Source of the DNA: Anaerolineae bacterium
Lineage (GTDB): Bacteria > Chloroflexota > Anaerolineae > Anaerolineales > DRMV01
Assembly: GCA_011176535.1 (NCBI GenBank)
Contig: DUEP01000011.1
Location: 9,984-44,807 of the forward strand
DNA: 34,824 nucleotides
Direction: 5' to 3'
How positions within the stretch are numbered: the stretch's first letter is position 1; each line of letters starts with the position of its first letter. The notes beneath the pieces were generated by a model. It made no database searches. It saw nothing but the letters and a program-made list of their open reading frames with translations, and was not told the DNA's origin. This document shows, one piece after another, positions 4,717 through 34,824 of this stretch. A program made the translations under genes and the position numbers.

Positions 4717-4837
4717 AAAAAAGAACGCTCCGGGCAGGCAACCCGGCGGCACCCGAAGACACCTCCTTAGGGCTGCTTCCTCTCGGACCTGACCCGGTTC
4801 GGAGGGCTTCGCCGCGCCGGACCCACCCGGAGCGCCC
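4717..4837 (-). ncRNA. ffs: Signal recognition particle RNA (4.5S-type, small bacterial form)
   Basis: Read on the minus strand, the region contains the conserved SRP domain IV core: GGTCAGGTCC, then a short loop, then GGAAGCAGCC. This is the apical helix bound by the Ffh M domain. The ends close with a perfect 9-bp stem, CGCTCCGGG (4834-4826 on the minus strand) with CCCGGAGCG (4734-4726), followed by TTCTTTTTT, which doubles as a terminator. The predicted RNA is about 120 bases, the size of the short form without an Alu domain. A consensus promoter lies directly upstream at 4840-4868. Its partner Ffh is encoded at 30080. The exact 5' end is inferred from promoter spacing, probably near 4833-4837. 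Confidence 0.93.
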
Positions 4838-16394: not shown

Positions 16395-17215
16395 CGCTCC
16401 CCCATCCCACGCCTGAAAAGGCCCTGGCTGTGGCCCGCCCGCTGACCGAGGAGGTGGGGCGTGTCTTGCTGGCGCGCTTCGTCGCCGGGGAGCGCACCGC
16501 CCGCCAAAAGGCCGACACCACCCTGGTCACCGAGGCGGACCGCGAGGCCGATCGCCGGCTGGTGGAGGGATTGCGGGCGGCTTTTCCCGGTTTGCCCGTG
16601 CTCAGCGAGGAGGGCGCCACCCGCTGGCCCGCCGCTGCGCCCGCCGGTTGGGTGGTGGATCCCCTGGACGGCACCACGAACTTTGCCGTGGGCTGGCCGA
16701 TTTGGGGGGTGAGCGTGGCCTATGTGGTGGAAGGCTGGCCCGTGGCCGGGGTGCTGCACTACCCCACCCTGGGCCTGACGGTTACGGCCACCCGCGGCGG
16801 CGCCTGGATGGGGAAGCGCCGCATCACGGTGCAACGGACGACCCAGCCCGGCGGTGGGGCCTTGGTGGCACTGTGTTCGCGCACGGCGCGGCGTGTGCGC
16901 GTGCTGCCCCCCTGGAAGGCGCGTATCTCCGGTTGCGCCACCTACGACTTTCTCAGCGTGGCTGCCGGGCAAACGGTGGCCGCGTTGCATGCTTCGCCCA
17001 AGGTGTGGGATCTGGCCGCCGTGTGGCTCATCGTGCGCGAGGCAGGGGGCCTGTGGCGGCCCTGGGGCGAAGCCCGGGCCGGGGAGCCCTTCCCCCTGCA
17101 TCCCGGCGAGGATTACGCCAGCCGGGCCTTTCCTCTGCTGGCTGCGGCGAGTGAGGAGGCGCTGGCGCGGCTTGGCAGGCAACTGGCCCCCTGGGCGGGT
17201 GAGGCTTTGGTATAA
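16391..17215 (+). CDS. Inositol-monophosphatase-family phosphatase
   Basis: A 274-residue Mg-dependent phosphatase. Motifs are TTLVTEADREAD (substrate and helix region), VLSEEGA (metal Glu pair), WVVDPLDGTTNFAVGWP (metal Asp, Asp, Thr) and, towards the end, SPKVWDLAAVWLIVREAGG (the WD-x-AA motif). The family hydrolyses inositol-1-phosphate, fructose-1,6-bisphosphate or similar sugar phosphates, and substrate cannot be told apart here. The frame is open upstream to 16136, but that part shadows the MFS gene. The ATG at 16391 overlaps the MFS stop and has GGAAGG just before it. The last codons overlap the -10 element of the next gene. Confidence 0.87.
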   Translation: MTLPHPTPEKALAVARPLTEEVGRVLLARFVAGERTARQKADTTLVTEADREADRRLVEGLRAAFPGLPVLSEEGATRWPAAAPAGWVVDPLDGTTNFAVGWPIWGVSVAYVVEGWPVAGVLHYPTLGLTVTATRGGAWMGKRRITVQRTTQPGGGALVALCSRTARRVRVLPPWKARISGCATYDFLSVAAGQTVAALHASPKVWDLAAVWLIVREAGGLWRPWGEARAGEPFPLHPGEDYASRAFPLLAAASEEALARLGRQLAPWAGEALV

Positions 17216-26400: not shown

Positions 26401-27242
26401 ATGTCCCCCAGTTGTTGCGTCAGTACGGCCTGACGCCGGACAAGCGCCTGGGGCAGCATTTTCTGGTGGACCCTGTGGCGTTGGGCCGCATTGTGGAGGC
26501 GGCGGACCTGTCCCCCCGGGCTCAGGTGCTGGAAGTGGGGCCGGGTGTGGGCAGTTTGACCGTGGCCTTGGCGCCGCATTGCCGTCGGCTGGTGGCGGTG
26601 GAGGTGGACCCGCGTTTCCGCCTGGTGTTGGAGCGGGTGCTGCATCCCTACCCCCATGTGGAGGTGATCTTCGGCGACATCCTGGCCCAGGACCCGGCGG
26701 CGCTGATGGGGGATGAGCCGTACCTGGTGGTAGCCAATCTGCCCTATTACATCACCGGGGCGGTGGTGCGCCACCTGCTCACCGCGCGCCGACGGCCCCG
26801 GCGCATGGTGCTCACCGTGCAGCGTGAGGTGGCGGCGCGGATCACGGCCACGCCCGGGCAGATGAGCCTGCTCAGCGTGAGTGTCCAGGTGTTCGGAGAA
26901 CCGCGCGTGGTGGCGCGCGTCCCTCGCGGAGCGTTTTACCCCTTGCCCGAGGTGGAATCGGCGGTGGTGCGGGTGGAGATGTATCCCGAGCCGCGCGTGC
27001 CCGAGGCGCAGTTGCCCGTGTTCTTTCGCGTGGCCCGGGCGGGGTTCGCCCAACGGCGGAAGAACCTGCGCAATGCCCTCAGCGCGGGGCTGGGCCTGAC
27101 GAAGCAGGAGGTCGAGGCAGTGCTTCGTCAGGCGGCCATCGAGCCTACCCGTCGGGCGGAGAGCCTGAACATGGAGGAATGGCAGCGCCTGACGGCTTTG
27201 TTTGTGCAACGGCTGGTGGGGGAGGGCAAGGCTAAGGGGTAG
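26385..27242 (+). CDS. rsmA: 16S rRNA dimethyladenosine transferase RsmA/KsgA
   Basis: RsmA dimethylates two neighbouring adenosines in the 3'-terminal hairpin of 16S rRNA during 30S maturation. The 285-residue protein has KRLGQHFLVDP near the N-terminus, the SAM-binding VLEVGPGVGSLT, an acidic AVEVDPRF, the catalytic VVANLPYYITG (NLPY motif), and the C-terminal RAGFAQRRKNLRNALS helical region. The ATG at 26385 overlaps the end of the YabE-like gene by 16 bases and has GGAG nine bases upstream. The upstream in-frame extension to 26334 lacks any ribosome site. Its 3' end overlaps the convergent GT2 gene by 11 bases. Confidence 0.95.
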   Translation: MDSALNVPQLLRQYGLTPDKRLGQHFLVDPVALGRIVEAADLSPRAQVLEVGPGVGSLTVALAPHCRRLVAVEVDPRFRLVLERVLHPYPHVEVIFGDILAQDPAALMGDEPYLVVANLPYYITGAVVRHLLTARRRPRRMVLTVQREVAARITATPGQMSLLSVSVQVFGEPRVVARVPRGAFYPLPEVESAVVRVEMYPEPRVPEAQLPVFFRVARAGFAQRRKNLRNALSAGLGLTKQEVEAVLRQAAIEPTRRAESLNMEEWQRLTALFVQRLVGEGKAKG

Positions 27243-27963
27243 GGCGACGGAGATCGCGGTAGGCTCGCCTCAGTTGCCACACCCGGAAGGCGGCCTCGAT
27301 TTGGATGCGCAGCGTCATTTTGGATTCCCCCCAGCGGCGGTCGGCAAAGTAAATGGGCACCTCGGCCACCCGCAGGCCCAGCAGATGGGCCAGGTAGGCC
27401 AGTTCTACCTGGAACACATACCCTGTCGAGCGGACGCGCGCTAAGGGGAGACGCTCCAGGGCCTGGCGGCGATACAGGCGATATCCGCCGGTGACATCGC
27501 GGATGGGCAGGTTAAGGATGGTACGGGCATAAAAATTGCCAAAGGCCGAAAGGGCTTTGCGCCAGAAGGGCCAGCGTTCGTCCACACCGCCTCCCGGTAC
27601 ATACCGGGAACCGATGACCAAATCGTAACCCTCTTGCAGGGTGTGCCACATCACCGGCAGGCGCTCCGGAGGATGGGAAAAGTCGGCGTCCATTTCGCCC
27701 ACGGCTTCGGCGCCCCAGTCCAGCGCGCGGCGAAAGCCGGCCAGATAGGCCGGCCCCAGCCCGCCTTTGCGGGTGCGATGGAGAACCTCGAGGCGTCCCA
27801 GATGCCGGGCTTTGAGGGCTTCGGCGATCTCGCCGGTGCCGTCGGGGCTGTTGTCGTCCACCACCAGCACGCGCAGCGGCAGGTCTAAAGCGAACAAAGC
27901 GGAGACCAACCGGGGGAGGTTCTCCGCTTCGTTGTAGGTCGGAAGCACGATGACCAGACTCAA
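27232..27963 (-). CDS. DPM1-like polyprenol monophosphomannose synthase (GT2)
   Basis: A 243-residue GT-A enzyme close in pattern to eukaryotic DPM1 and actinobacterial Ppm1: IVLPTYNEAENLPRLV, LVVDDNSPDGTGEIAE, the KGGLGPAYLAGF loop, the metal-binding EMDADFSHPPE, VIGSRYVPGGG, and the RDVTGGYRLYRRQAL segment. It would transfer mannose (or glucose) from a nucleotide sugar to polyprenyl phosphate. No membrane helix is present. This is the last gene of the minus-strand signalling operon. Its ATG overlaps the stop of the receiver gene by four bases (27960-27963), so it is co-translated with that gene. Its 3' end overlaps rsmA. Confidence 0.88.
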   Translation of the reverse strand: MSLVIVLPTYNEAENLPRLVSALFALDLPLRVLVVDDNSPDGTGEIAEALKARHLGRLEVLHRTRKGGLGPAYLAGFRRALDWGAEAVGEMDADFSHPPERLPVMWHTLQEGYDLVIGSRYVPGGGVDERWPFWRKALSAFGNFYARTILNLPIRDVTGGYRLYRRQALERLPLARVRSTGYVFQVELAYLAHLLGLRVAEVPIYFADRRWGESKMTLRIQIEAAFRVWQLRRAYRDLRRPTP

Positions 27964-28841
27964 GCTGTTGAACCTTTTTGGGGGGTACCGCCCAGGGCGG
28001 CCTTGAGGGCTTCGAGGGAGGAGAAGGGGCCTTGAGTGGGGTCCAGGGTGGTGATGCGGGCGCTGAGTTTGTGGGGGCCGAAGTTGCCCGCCTCACGGTC
28101 TTGCAGGGGGTAGAAGTAGTCAATGGATTGCGTCAGCCGCTCACGGATGCGCGTTTCCAGATTAGGGAGACGGTCTGGGGTGGAGATGATGATGAAATCG
28201 GTGGCCGAGAGATGGCCGAGGAAGTCGTCTTTGTTCCCCATATCCCGCACCGCGTTTTGGAGCATCAAGGTGATGGCGCGGAGCACATCGTCGGCGGCGA
28301 TGAAGCCATAGCGGTCGCGGAAGACATCCAGGTGGCGCAGCGCGACGCCGATGAGCGCCCAGGGCTGATCGCTTTCCAGGGTCATCTGCAGGCGCTCATC
28401 CACCACCGGCCCCTCGGGGAGGTTGGTCACCGGGTTGGCCAGGGGGCCCATGCGGGCGCGGCGCAACGCATTGCGCACCCGCAAACGGAGTTCCTGCAGG
28501 TCGAAGGGCTTGGTGATGTAGTCGTCGGCCCCCAGTTCCAGCCCGTGCAGGCGGTCGGCGCGTTCGCGTTTCTCGGTGAGAAAGATGATGGGGATGCGGG
28601 CTGTGTGGATGTTTTGGCGCAGGCGCCTGGCGACCTCGAAGCCGTCAATGTCCGGCAGGCGAATGTCCAGGATGACTAAGTCTGGATGGGCTATCTGGCA
28701 CAGCCGGATGCCGTCTTCACCCCAGTTCGCCGTCTGCACCTCGTAGCCCTGCACCTGGAAGTAGGCCATCAGCATATCAGCCACATCCAGGTCGTCTTCG
28801 ATGATCAGCAGTTTGGCTGGGGTCTTTGCTGGGATGTCCAT
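27960..28841 (-). CDS. Response regulator with degenerate GGDEF-like output
   Basis: A 293-residue protein. Residues 8-125 are a complete receiver: IIEDD (13-17), phospho-acceptor Asp59 in LVILDIRLPDIDG, Thr89, and Lys111 in DDYITKPFDL. The rest has the outline of a GGDEF domain but not its chemistry. The entry motif reads NPVTNLPEGPVVDERL instead of DPLTGLPNR. A FRDRYGFIAADDVLRAI helix follows, and the active-site position reads LSATDFIII where GGDEF is expected. It is therefore unlikely to make cyclic di-GMP, but it could bind a nucleotide or act as a dimer switch. It lies 21 bases after the V4R gene and overlaps the DPM1-like gene. Confidence 0.85.
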   Translation of the reverse strand: MDIPAKTPAKLLIIEDDLDVADMLMAYFQVQGYEVQTANWGEDGIRLCQIAHPDLVILDIRLPDIDGFEVARRLRQNIHTARIPIIFLTEKRERADRLHGLELGADDYITKPFDLQELRLRVRNALRRARMGPLANPVTNLPEGPVVDERLQMTLESDQPWALIGVALRHLDVFRDRYGFIAADDVLRAITLMLQNAVRDMGNKDDFLGHLSATDFIIISTPDRLPNLETRIRERLTQSIDYFYPLQDREAGNFGPHKLSARITTLDPTQGPFSSLEALKAALGGTPQKGSTA

Positions 28842-28862
28842 GGGCCTACGCCTTCGGAAGGG

Positions 28863-29501
28863 TTAACTGAGAGGTTCTTTGTGAATGATGAATTCGCAGA
28901 CATCATCGCCTTTGGCAATGCACTTGGATTCATCCACGCGGAATTCGCTTCCACCGGAGACCCATTTCAGACCTTCCTGGAGCAGGCCCACGGCCATGAA
29001 GCATACCGGCTTATCGGAGGTGCCATGGCGTCCCCAGCAGACCGGGCAGCGGTGGATGGTGTACACGTACACGTGTTCTTGCTCTTCCACTGTGGATATT
29101 TGGTCGCTGAACTGGCTGAAGATTTTGGCCATGGCCGAGAGGCCGATGCGCAATTTGGCTTGGAGAGGTAGTACTTTGAAGGCTAGATCCCCCACGCCAG
29201 CTAGCGCGCCGAAATTGCGCAGACCTTCAGAGAAAGCCGCTCGCCCTGCTCGCAGGGCCAATGCCCGGCCTCCGCGCGGGCCGTACATCTCTTCCAGCGC
29301 CAGGTTGAGGGCCGAGAAGTCGGCGAAGTCAAAGGCTTTCTCTAAGTTGTCCGGTGGAAGATCATCGATGAGATGGGAAAGATGGGCCAGGTTGAGGATG
29401 GCCTTGAGGCCGTTAGGGCCCATCACCTCTTCCAGAGCCTCCAGAGTGATCCGGGCGATTTTGTTGGGGTAGTACAAACCGCTTTTGGGGATGGGGTCCA
29501 T
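28863..29501 (-). CDS. V4R-domain protein with Cys-rich ligand site
   Basis: A 212-residue protein with an N-terminal helical half and a C-terminal V4R (4-vinyl reductase-like) domain. The V4R signs are the strand VYVYTIHRCPVCWGR (His150, Cys152, Cys155), Cys167 in DKPVCFMAVG, and the closing SKCIAKGDDVCEFIIHKEP (Cys194, Cys202). V4R domains bind small hydrophobic molecules or metal and occur in XylR/PoxR-type sensors and in bacteriochlorophyll biosynthesis. They are related to Bet3-type subunits of the eukaryotic TRAPP complex. The Cys cluster could bind zinc or a cofactor. The gene lies 14 bases after the roadblock gene and 21 before the receiver gene, so it is probably the sensor of this operon. 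The ligand is unknown. Confidence 0.87.
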   Translation of the reverse strand: MDPIPKSGLYYPNKIARITLEALEEVMGPNGLKAILNLAHLSHLIDDLPPDNLEKAFDFADFSALNLALEEMYGPRGGRALALRAGRAAFSEGLRNFGALAGVGDLAFKVLPLQAKLRIGLSAMAKIFSQFSDQISTVEEQEHVYVYTIHRCPVCWGRHGTSDKPVCFMAVGLLQEGLKWVSGGSEFRVDESKCIAKGDDVCEFIIHKEPLS

Positions 29502-29515
29502 GGTTCCCTGCCCTT

Positions 29516-29887
29516 TTAGATGAATTTGGCGATATCTTCGGCTGCTCGGCGCATGTCGAGGAAAATCAGGCCCAACTTGGCCTGGTCGCGGGCCAAAGCG
29601 GTGAGCACGGCCTCTTCTCCGATGGCCATCAGCACGACATAGCCGTTCTGGCCTTTGATGAAAACCTGCTCCAGCGCGCCCCGTCCGAGTTCCGAGGCGA
29701 TGCGTTCGCCCAGGCTCAGCATGGCGGCCGACATCGCGGACACGCGGTCTTCTTCGATGCCCTGGGGCAGGGCCGAGGCAATGGTGAGGCCGTCAACGCT
29801 CACCACGGCCGAGGCTTCAATGTCGGGCGAAGAAGCCTGTAATTCACGCAGGCGGTCAACCAGTTGTTGAGTGCGGGATTTGGCCAA
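29516..29887 (-). CDS. Roadblock/LC7-domain protein
   Basis: A 123-residue single-domain protein of the roadblock/LC7 fold: a long N-terminal helix (TQQLVDRLRELQ), strand SAVVSVDGLTIASAL, the helix VSAMSAAMLSLGERIASEL, and strands QVFIKGQNGYVVLMAIG and VLTALARDQAKLG. Bacterial relatives such as MglB regulate small Ras-like GTPases, but no GTPase gene is present in the window. I place the start at TTG 29887: a perfect AAGGAGG lies six bases upstream, while the in-frame codons further upstream have no ribosome site and run into the promoter. It is the first gene of the operon with V4R, the receiver and the DPM1-like enzyme. Confidence 0.88.
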   Translation of the reverse strand: MAKSRTQQLVDRLRELQASSPDIEASAVVSVDGLTIASALPQGIEEDRVSAMSAAMLSLGERIASELGRGALEQVFIKGQNGYVVLMAIGEEAVLTALARDQAKLGLIFLDMRRAAEDIAKFI

Positions 29888-29945
29888 GGCTTCCCTCCTT
29901 AGGTGAAGCATGCGTGGGAACATGTGCAGCAGCAGGGCTGGCTCA

Positions 29946-29974
29946 AATGTAGCACAACCACAGTTAACTGTCAA
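29946..29974 (-). promoter_or_regulatory. Consensus promoter of the roadblock-V4R operon
   Basis: On the minus strand there is -35 TTGACA (29974-29969), a 17-base spacer and -10 TACATT (29951-29946). Start is expected near 29939, giving a leader of about 50 bases. A GTTAAC palindrome sits directly after the -35. Confidence 0.85.
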
Positions 29975-31562: not shown

Positions 31563-31910
31563 ATGGTCCGTATTCGTTTACGCCGCGTAGGTGCGCGAAA
31601 TCAGCCGAGTTATCGGATTGTGGCAGCCCCGCAGGGCGCCAAGCGCGATGGGAAGTTCCTGGAGATTTTGGGGCATTACAACCCTCGCACCAATCCGCCG
31701 ACCGTGGTGCTGAAGGAAGACCGGGTGTACGACTGGCTGAGCAAGGGCGCCCAGCCCTCGGAGTCGGTGGAAAAGATTTTCCGGATGATCGGCTTCCATG
31801 AGCGCTATGAGCGTTTCAAGCGGGGCGAGCCGGTAGAGAAGTTGCTCGAGGAAGCCGCTGCGGCCCAGGCCAAGTTCCAGGCCAACCCCAAGACCACTCA
31901 GGTGGGGTGA
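31563..31910 (+). CDS. rpsP: 30S ribosomal protein S16
   Basis: A 115-residue ribosomal protein that binds the 5' domain of 16S rRNA. The N-terminus MVRIRLRRVGARNQPSYRIV and the block GKFLEILGHYNP are diagnostic of S16. The C-terminal 35 residues (KLLEEAAAAQAKFQANPKT) are a Lys/Ala-rich extension found in many longer S16 forms. The ATG at 31563 has a long AAGGAGAGG site about ten bases upstream. An in-frame TTG at 31530 lies before that site and is rejected. The gene is followed after 25 bases by khpA, as in many bacteria. Confidence 0.96.
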   Translation: MVRIRLRRVGARNQPSYRIVAAPQGAKRDGKFLEILGHYNPRTNPPTVVLKEDRVYDWLSKGAQPSESVEKIFRMIGFHERYERFKRGEPVEKLLEEAAAAQAKFQANPKTTQVG

Positions 31911-32773: not shown

Positions 32774-33718
32774 ATGGAACGCACCCCTTTCCTTCTCCCA
32801 TCGCAGGCGTTTGAACCGGCCTACTTGCGCTTGTATCGAAGCGGCGAACTTCAGCGACGGGCTGCCCGGGCGCAGGAAGCATTGGCCGCCTGCCGCTTGT
32901 GCCCCCGCGCCTGTGGCGTGAACCGCCTAGCCGACGAACGGGGCGTTTGCCGCACCGGGCGGCGCGCTGTGGTGAGCAGTGCCTTCCCTCATTTTGGGGA
33001 GGAGGATTGCCTGCGCGGCTGGCGAGGCAGCGGCACCCTTTTCTTTGCCTGGTGCAATTTGCGCTGCGTCTTTTGCCAAAACGAGGAGATCAGCCATCGG
33101 GGGCAGGGCCGCGAGGTGACCGCCGAGGAACTGGCCGCGCTGATGCTTGCCCTTCAGGAGGAGGGAGTACACAACCTCAACCTGGTGACCCCGGAGCATG
33201 TCGTCCCCCAGATTTTGGAGGCCTTGGTTCTGGCTGTCGAGCAGGGCCTGCGGCTGCCCATCGTGTACAACACCTCGGCTTATGATGGCCTGGAGAGTTT
33301 GCGGCTGCTGGATGGGGTGGTCGATATCTACATGCCGGATTTCAAGGTGTGGAGTACGCAGGCCGCCCGCCGTTACCTCAAGGCGCCCGATTACCCTCAG
33401 GTGGCGCGCCAGGCGTTGCGGGAGATGCACCGCCAGGTAGGGGATTTGCAACTGGACGAGCATGGCCTGGCCAAACGGGGTTTGTTGGTGCGTCACCTGG
33501 TGATGCCCGGACTTTTGGAGGAGACCCGCGCCATCATGCGGTTCCTGGCCTCGGAGATCTCCCCGGATACCTGTGTGAACTTGATGGCGCAATACTATCC
33601 TGCCGGGGAGGTGAGTGCCGGGCGTTACGCGGAAATCAACCGCCGGATCACCCCGGAAGAGTTTCGCCAGGCCGTGGCGTGGGCGAAGGCGCAGGGCTTG
33701 TGGCGCTTTGCCGGTTAA
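32774..33718 (+). CDS. PflX/PflA-like radical SAM protein
   Basis: A 314-residue radical SAM protein of the COG1313 type (PflX, similar to pyruvate formate-lyase activase). The cluster motif CxxxCxxC is Cys94, Cys98 and Cys101 in AWCNLRCVFCQN. Before it lies a second cysteine set, Cys40, Cys43, Cys47 and Cys59 (CRLCPRACGVN, RGVC), which may hold another metal or cluster. Later motifs are NLNLVTPEHV, IVYNTSAYDG, DIYMPDFKVW and LVRHLVMPG. No glycyl-radical enzyme gene is nearby and the true target of this family is unknown. It takes the position where trmD often lies after rimM. The ATG at 32774 has no clear Shine-Dalgarno, with a 26-base gap from rimM. Confidence 0.85.
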   Translation: MERTPFLLPSQAFEPAYLRLYRSGELQRRAARAQEALAACRLCPRACGVNRLADERGVCRTGRRAVVSSAFPHFGEEDCLRGWRGSGTLFFAWCNLRCVFCQNEEISHRGQGREVTAEELAALMLALQEEGVHNLNLVTPEHVVPQILEALVLAVEQGLRLPIVYNTSAYDGLESLRLLDGVVDIYMPDFKVWSTQAARRYLKAPDYPQVARQALREMHRQVGDLQLDEHGLAKRGLLVRHLVMPGLLEETRAIMRFLASEISPDTCVNLMAQYYPAGEVSAGRYAEINRRITPEEFRQAVAWAKAQGLWRFAG

Positions 33719-33749
33719 AAAGCGCGCCCTGGCCGGGAAAGGCAGGGCG
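33717..33749 (-). terminator. Intrinsic terminator downstream of the tRNA-Arg remnant
   Basis: On the minus strand CGCCCTG (33749-33743) pairs with CAGGGCG (33731-33725), then CGC and TTTTT (33721-33717). It sits right after the tRNA 3' end, and its T-run overlaps the stop codon of the radical SAM gene. Confidence 0.75.
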
Positions 33750-33756
33750 TTGGGGA

Positions 33757-33821
33757 TGCCCCCACCGCGACTCGAACGCGGGTCTTCGGCTCCGGAGGCC
33801 GACGCTCTATCCACTGAGCAA
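33757..33821 (-). pseudogene. tRNA-Arg(CCG) remnant lacking the 5' acceptor strand
   Basis: Read on the minus strand, the body is intact. The D-arm is GCTCAGTGGATAGAGC, the anticodon stem-loop TCGGC-CTCCGGA-GCCGA has anticodon CCG, the T-arm is CCGCG-TTCGAGT-CGCGG, and the 3' acceptor strand is TGGGGGC plus discriminator A (33764-33757). CCA is not encoded. The 5' strand should read GCCCCCA, but the seven bases in that place read CCTTTGC and cannot pair. A CCCCC run occurs eight bases too far upstream. The gene is therefore broken at about 33821. The adjacent transposase remnant offers a cause. An intact tRNA with an unusual insertion is less likely. Confidence 0.7.
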
Positions 33822-33905
33822 GCAAAGGGAGGGGGTATGTCCCCCTGGTGTTATACTTTGCCCCTTGCTTACGACTTGGTCAAGGCGCCGGTGGGGAAGG
33901 GAAAG

Positions 33906-34824
33906 GTGTCTCTCAGTCCCGACCCGTTATTGACGTTGCTGTTTACCGAAGCCTAAGATGGTTTGCGTCTGCTCATGGAGCGGTTGCTCAACCTGCTCAT
34001 GCTGGCCGAGGGCCAGGCCTATCTTCAAGCCGAACCTTACCAACGCACACCGGAGCACCGCGATCAAGCCAATGGCTTCAAGCCCAAGACCCTCAAGACG
34101 CGGTTGGGGGGCCCTGGCCTTGCGGGTACCCCAGGTACGCAAGGGTGCTTTCTACCCCTCCGTGCGAACCAAAGGGAGGCGAGCGAGCGTGCGGCGTGGC
34201 TTATCCTGGCCGAGATGGATGTCCATGGGGTGTCCACCCGCAAAGTCGCGGCTTTGGTCGAAGAGGTCTTGGGGTTCGAAGTTTCCTCGACCATGGTGAG
34301 CCGGGCGGCCCAAGACCTGGACGAAACTCTGCAGGCCTGGCGGGGACGGCCCTTGGGTGAACAGCCTTGTCGCTATCTCTGTTTGGAGGCTCCCTATGAG
34401 CATGTGCGCGTGGATGGGCAGATCCGGGATGCGGCCGTGTTGGTGGCGGTAGGGAAAGGTGTGGGCGGATGGCCACCGGCGGGTGTTGGGCGTGGAGGTA
34501 GCCTTGGGCGAGCAGGAAGTCCACTGGCGGCAGTTCTTGCAGTGCCTGGTGGCGCGCGGGGGGTGCGGGGCGTGCAGTGGATTGTCGGCGATGACCATGC
34601 CGGGCTGCGGGCTGCGCGACAGGCGGTTTTCGGCGGGGTCCCGTGGCAGCGATGCCAGTGCCACCGGCAGCAAAACGCCCAGGCCTATGTGCCCCGCAAA
34701 GCGATGCAGGCGGAAGTGGCTGCACGCATACGAGAGATGTTCAATGCCCCCAACCGTGCCCAGGCTGAACAGCCGTTGAAGGCTTGGGTCTCCGAGATGG
34801 AAAAGCGCGCGCCACGCCTGGCCC
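33906..34824 (+). pseudogene. Degenerate IS256-family (Mutator-type) transposase, runs off window
   Basis: Translation shows an IS256-type transposase: SLSPDPLLTLL, then DGLRLLMERLLNLLMLAEGQ, EPYQRTPEHRDQANGFKPKT, LAEMDVHGVSTRKVAALVEE, WRGRPLGEQP, VGDDHAGLRAARQAVFGGVP and WQRCQCHRQQNAQAYVP. It is damaged. A TAA at 33954 interrupts the N-terminal part. Two blocks fit the family only in another frame: GALALRVPQVRKGAFYPS (34110-34188) and GHRRVLGVEVALGEQEVHW (34470-34540). This implies four compensating indels, two of them near G6 runs (about 34109 and 34558). The first catalytic Asp, normally in a LDA-x-YE motif, is Glu (CLEAPYE). From 33957 the main frame stays open to the window's end. The 3' end and right terminal repeat lie outside. 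Its left end is probably at 33822-33860, abutting the tRNA remnant. Confidence 0.85.

Follow-up and report, generated by a model that had tools for sequence, protein, structure and literature searches.

A tRNA-Arg(CCG) fragment beside an IS256-type transposase remnant in an Anaerolineae bacterium: a probable displaced attachment site of an integrative element that targets tRNA genes

Near the end of a contig of an Anaerolineae bacterium, a tRNA-Arg(CCG) gene without its first bases lies close to an IS256-type transposase, which raises the question of what broke the tRNA gene: the transposon itself, or the recombination of an integrative element with its tRNA target. The stretch of DNA analyzed, here called the window, has 34,824 nucleotides and corresponds to G000:C11:9984-44807, where G000 is the genome of the bacterium itself, other G numbers are genomes of relatives and C numbers are contigs. 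All four- and five-digit coordinates without a contig label are window positions (Table 1), and the window ends at the end of contig C11 (44,807 bases). The original prediction put forward a simple insertion of the IS256-type element into the tRNA gene, and offered as the alternative that the remnant is a copy of an attachment site from the integration of an element. Our analysis sides with this alternative: the broken tRNA is most likely an ordinary element boundary and not a gene broken by a transposon, which corrects a tempting misreading of the locus.

The tRNA-Arg(CCG) fragment and its edge

Own-genome DNA comparison showed that the window fragment and an intact tRNA-Arg(CCG) located at G000:C97:326-397 are identical in 65 of 65 bases (E 8.4e-27), a match far above chance. 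The identity spans positions 10 to 74 counted from the start of the 72-base tRNA, and stops sharply at position 10. At this boundary the intact gene shows GCCCCCATA and then GCTCAG, while the window shows CCTTTGCTT and then GCTCAG; the acceptor strand GCCCCCA is thus missing, as predicted, and has been replaced by CCTTTGCTT. A short string CCTTTGCTT common to C97 and the window was noticed by eye and ascribed to chance. The rest of the prediction for the tRNA, a body with an intact 3' end and terminator, is borne out by ARAGORN (33754-33830), by Rfam (RF00005, 33757-33823, 41.4 bits) and by the terminator-like stem-loop at 33744-33725. When folded alone, the window sequence gives -24.8 kcal/mol with a z of +0.69 and loses the cloverleaf, compared with -36.8 kcal/mol and a z of -2.97 for the intact tRNA of C97. 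Judged from these predicted folds, the window tRNA reads as a pseudo-tRNA, although both ARAGORN and Rfam list it. The radical SAM protein encoded on the 3' side of the fragment has its best relatives among uncultured Anaerolineae and other Chloroflexota, with around 72% identity.

Table 1. Features of the window around the tRNA-Arg(CCG) fragment and elsewhere in the stretch
Feature	Position	Strand	Remarks
Small SRP RNA gene	4729..4828	-	RF00169, 67.8 bits
Four genes	27232..29974	-	Homologues directly 3' of intact tRNA-Arg(CCG) in G003 and G007
Radical SAM protein gene	32774..33718	+	PF04055; converges on the tRNA fragment
Terminator-like stem-loop with T run	33725..33744	-	Follows the tRNA 3' end; interpreted as the original terminator of the gene
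tRNA-Arg(CCG) 3' fragment	33755..33819	-	tRNA positions 10-72 plus 2 bases downstream; 65/65 against G000:C97:326-397
Nine bases CCTTTGCTT	33820..33828	-	In place of tRNA positions 1-9; no normal acceptor stem in the predicted fold
98 bp from tRNA edge to first IS homology	33820..33917		Read as element right-end sequence
Terminator-like hairpin AGGGGGACATACCCCCT	33830..33846	-	Oriented towards the tRNA fragment
IS256/Mutator-type transposase remnant	33918..34824	+	PF00872; left-truncated, frame-broken, runs off the contig end

Intact tRNA genes and 3' fragments in this and related genomes

The CCG-reading tRNA is present intact on C97, with flanks unlike those of the window fragment; cover by another copy was one of the possibilities raised in the original prediction. 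The same contig carries genes which, from their translations, we take to be lysS and kinase genes. A gene that extends over two frames starts less than 100 bases downstream of the C97 tRNA. It is decayed, with a frameshift and an apparent loss of its central part ahead of the contig end, and is the one mobile-element gene seen on the 3' side of the intact tRNA. In the same genome, tRNA-Pro(CGG) on C117 is immediately followed by a homologue that stays open to the contig end; another homologue, of 180 amino acids, follows tRNA-Asn(GTT) in G004:C46. In PHROG, the homologues match recombination directionality factor/excisionase families weakly (best E-values 7.9e-6 and 8.8e-6), and the G004 protein matches a MerR-like regulator best (3.4e-6). 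In Pfam, HTH and MerR models were obtained: all of them were below the curated cut-off for the C117 protein, and MerR_1 was just above it for the G004 protein. The C97 gene and its homologues are therefore described here as putative excisionase/RDF-like genes, a weak annotation. A scan of IMG/VR with the excisionase-like protein confirmed no relatives.

Both tRNAs followed by a homologue have a second copy that contains only the 3' part. The second copy of tRNA-Pro(CGG), on C38, covers positions 32-78 (47 bp), and that of tRNA-Asn(GTT), on G004:C8, covers positions 40-113 (74 bp), of which the final 38 lie downstream of the gene and continue into the terminator. In these searches, weaker matches were set aside as presumed other tRNA genes: those on C127 (84%) and C3 (76%) for tRNA-Pro, and four for tRNA-Asn. 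The fragments of C38 and G004:C8 each adjoin a tyrosine integrase gene (PF00589), and in C38 the last codons of the integrase extend into the tRNA-Pro fragment. C117:34052-34653, with tRNA-Pro and the excisionase-like gene, and C38:24825-25362, with the fragment and the integrase, are probably the two ends of one element; likewise, G004:C8 at approximately 16480-16600 and G004:C46 are probably the two ends of a tRNA-Asn(GTT) element. The window fragment looks like a third case of this arrangement, in which one end has an intact tRNA with an excisionase-like gene and the opposite end a tRNA 3' fragment. In all three, Arg, Pro and Asn, the two ends are on different contigs.

The same tRNA-Arg(CCG) gene is used in G001, which belongs to another genus of the same family. 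Contig G001:C52 shows an intact tRNA-Arg(CCG) at 31815-31889 and a 3' fragment at approximately 2732-2790 with 55 bp of identity, and the genes between them encode an integrase (PF00589, E 8.8e-36), a terminase large subunit, a tape measure protein and a GH25 endolysin. This prophage of approximately 29 kb is apparently complete, and sits in tRNA-Arg(CCG) with the 55-bp fragment at its far end on the same contig. In G001:C52 the integrase adjoins the intact tRNA, whereas in the tRNA-Pro element of G000 and the tRNA-Asn element of G004 it adjoins the fragment. Second tRNA-Arg matches found in G005, G010, G013, G015 and G016 were set aside as presumed other tRNA-Arg genes, and a second copy in G055 (66 bases, 90%) gave no clean fragment when read. 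tRNA-Arg(CCG) is an integration site in one genus of the family, that of G001, and G000 is a probable second case.

The integrases at the far ends of the Pro and Asn elements are the more divergent part, with 31.7% identity, the Pro integrase being partial, against 62.6% for the HTH genes. Tentatively, from these protein comparisons, an excisionase/RDF-like module present in two genera of the family might end elements that use Arg-CCG, Pro-CGG and Asn-GTT, with the target switched by integrase swap and the left-end module kept; we regard this as possible and rather doubtful.

Four PF00589 matches are present in the own genome, on C32, C38, C29 and C58, and none of them is on C97 or C11. As a separate observation made by eye, the last 135 bases or so of C111, downstream of tRNA-Arg(TCG), resemble the reverse complement of the start of C32, and the C32 sequence concerned is the start of a tyrosine recombinase gene.

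Integration into the tRNA gene and the order of neighboring genes

It is an established pattern that integration splits a tRNA gene while sequence of the island restores it, so that a regenerated target and a displaced fragment mark the two ends (PMC4383910, PMC6917214, PMC10865867). With this pattern and the parallel cases above, we consider it very probable that 33755-33819 is a displaced 3' piece of tRNA-Arg(CCG) and represents the distal attachment site of an integrative, phage-like element that targets tRNA genes. In this scenario, a tyrosine integrase would have recombined an attP bearing the tRNA 3' end with the host tRNA gene. Joined together, the 5' part of the host gene and the 3' part of the element would have given an intact tRNA again, at the end now on C97, and the original 3' part would have been left at the other end, in the window, beside its old downstream genes. 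The window-side end would have decayed later, and a truncated IS256-type transposase would now lie where the sister elements have the integrase. Both contigs, C11 and C97, break off within the presumed element, which counts against this reading: that they flank one element is an inference, as are the membership of the C97 excisionase-like gene in this element and the former presence of an integrase at the window end, where none is seen and the truncated IS is found instead. A search of the own genome for terminases of family PF03237 gave none; instead of a phage, the element may therefore be a decayed island.

The arrangement resembles Islander-type tRNA islands and prophages, as outlined in an excerpt of PMC4383910, in that an intact tRNA and a displaced 3' fragment form the two ends, and in that tyrosine integrases and an excisionase-like gene are found at the ends of the sister elements. 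It differs from them in that the element side of the window fragment shows a truncated IS and no visible integrase, and in that the ends are on separate contigs. Counted against the attachment-site reading is the length of the identical block, 65 bp, which exceeds the 30-45 bp that an excerpt of PMC10865867 gives as the typical common core of mycobacteriophages. Among the titles listed as matches on Anaerolineae prophages and tRNA integration, none deals with integrative elements of this family. The window adds a probable further member to a known kind of tRNA-element boundary.

Gene order in relatives agrees with the orientation expected for a displaced part. In G003 and G007, homologues of the four window genes at 29516-29974, 28863-29501, 27960-28841 and 27232-27963 follow immediately on the 3' side of the intact tRNA-Arg(CCG), with order and orientation kept. 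In the window they are also 3' of the fragment, with the radical SAM gene and three genes intervening which we take from their translations to be ffh, rpsP and rimM. As the 3' neighbors in G003 and G007 match genes of the window, the fragment is on the ancestral 3' side, as a displaced part would be. One end of a probable mobile element is placed beside the presumed ffh-rpsP-rimM genes. Furthermore, G008 shows the tRNA-Arg and the lysS and kinase genes approximately 9 kb apart on one contig, and in G011 approximately 6.2 kb separate the lysS and kinase genes from ffh; given this linkage, C97 and C11 may plausibly lie on either side of a single locus. Against this, a distance of at most 6.2 kb or so between lysS and ffh was found in only one of the seven relatives compared, some of which have these genes on short contigs (G017, G016); an eighth, G007, where the contig has 3.5 kb, was left out of the count.

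A further point against the attachment-site reading is that an empty site with the order lysS, tRNA-Arg, radical SAM gene was found neither among the radical SAM loci (matches in 17 of 61 genomes, and the best 80 loci of 575 relatives) nor among the lysS loci. From the latter, 30 of 54 matches were kept and run through ARAGORN with flanks of up to approximately 1.5 kb; one was that of the own genome, and none of the 29 loci of relatives showed a tRNA.

A second explanation, a tRNA duplicate or pseudogene produced by some other rearrangement that lost its first nine bases, with the IS arriving later by chance, takes its support from the 5' side of the gene. In g4 and several g5 genomes of the family, tRNA-Arg(CCG) is preceded on its 5' side by a cluster recG-coaD-168aa (recG and coaD being the names we presume for these genes). 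In the own genome this cluster lies at G000:C46:19342-22960, with one internal TAG in the recG match, and ARAGORN detected no tRNA on C46 past it. The tRNA has therefore left its usual place in this lineage, and with its usual 5' neighbors on C46 and no tRNA there, the locus has been rearranged in some other way too, which also counts against the attachment-site reading. A 5' half of the tRNA left behind at the old locus was considered and rejected, since C46 carries no tRNA after the cluster according to ARAGORN. A -10-like TATAAC noticed by eye approximately 30 bases 5' of the fragment also fits a duplicate. This explanation, however, leaves unexplained both the excisionase-like gene next to the intact tRNA and the like arrangement at tRNA-Pro and tRNA-Asn with their integrase-flanked fragments, and we judge it improbable.

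The transposase remnant and the 98 bp beside the tRNA

The presence of an IS256-type element near the tRNA, also part of the original prediction, was confirmed: the open frame 33963-34823 matches Transposase_mut (PF00872) with an E-value of 1.7e-45. In DNA, the window IS is 86% identical to C81:1-379 and 89% identical to C66:16982-17264 of the same genome. The conserved blocks of the transposase are scattered over more than one frame. An in-frame TAA near the transposase start (33954-33956) is common to the C81 copy, though the copies differ by approximately 14%. Similarity to the C81 copy begins at 33918, which in C81 corresponds to a point around ten codons past the ATG. Further upstream, the C81, G011 and G004 copies have a left end whose core is TTCTGTAAAA; the complement of this end is carried by the C66 and G011 copies at their right ends. 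The window IS lacks the left inverted repeat and the first codons present in the C81 copy, and the 17-base form of the TTCTGTAAAA end had no match in the window at up to three mismatches. As the left end of the other copies is absent, the window IS is a truncated, frame-broken remnant.

The claim that the acceptor strand is lost exactly where the IS begins fails, since the IS homology starts 98 bp away from the tRNA edge and within the coding region. No second copy of these 98 bp was found in the own genome; the part at 33826-33917 found no match in 60 other genomes, in most of which seven first-look candidates were scored, and the whole compared with the regions upstream of three IS copies showed a similarity no better than that of shuffled sequences.

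Under a simple insertion of an IS256-type element, the acceptor half and an 8-9 bp duplication would lie past the right end of the IS. This is suggested by the closeness of an IS256/Mutator transposase to a broken tRNA, and the far side of the IS does lie beyond the contig end. However, no inverted repeat is found near the tRNA, the homology begins inside a transposase gene that is itself frame-broken, an intact CCG tRNA with different flanks is present on C97, and the sharp inner edge on a tRNA 3' piece is the pattern also seen in the three other attachment-site fragments examined. The locus shares with IS256/Mutator-family insertion sequences the transposase homology (PF00872), and differs from them in a copy that is truncated and does not touch the tRNA. 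Simple insertion was rejected as the main reading and is very unlikely, and the displaced attachment site, which was the alternative in the original prediction, gains from the two parallel tRNA cases and from the G001 prophage, which occupies the same tRNA gene.

An assembly artefact, with a repeat end wrongly joined on as the last kilobase of C11, is hardly credible: C11 does end inside an IS, and IS are common break points in draft assemblies, but with 86-89% similarity to the two other copies of the genome the window IS is not a collapsed identical repeat, and the 98 bp beside the tRNA are single-copy in the own genome.
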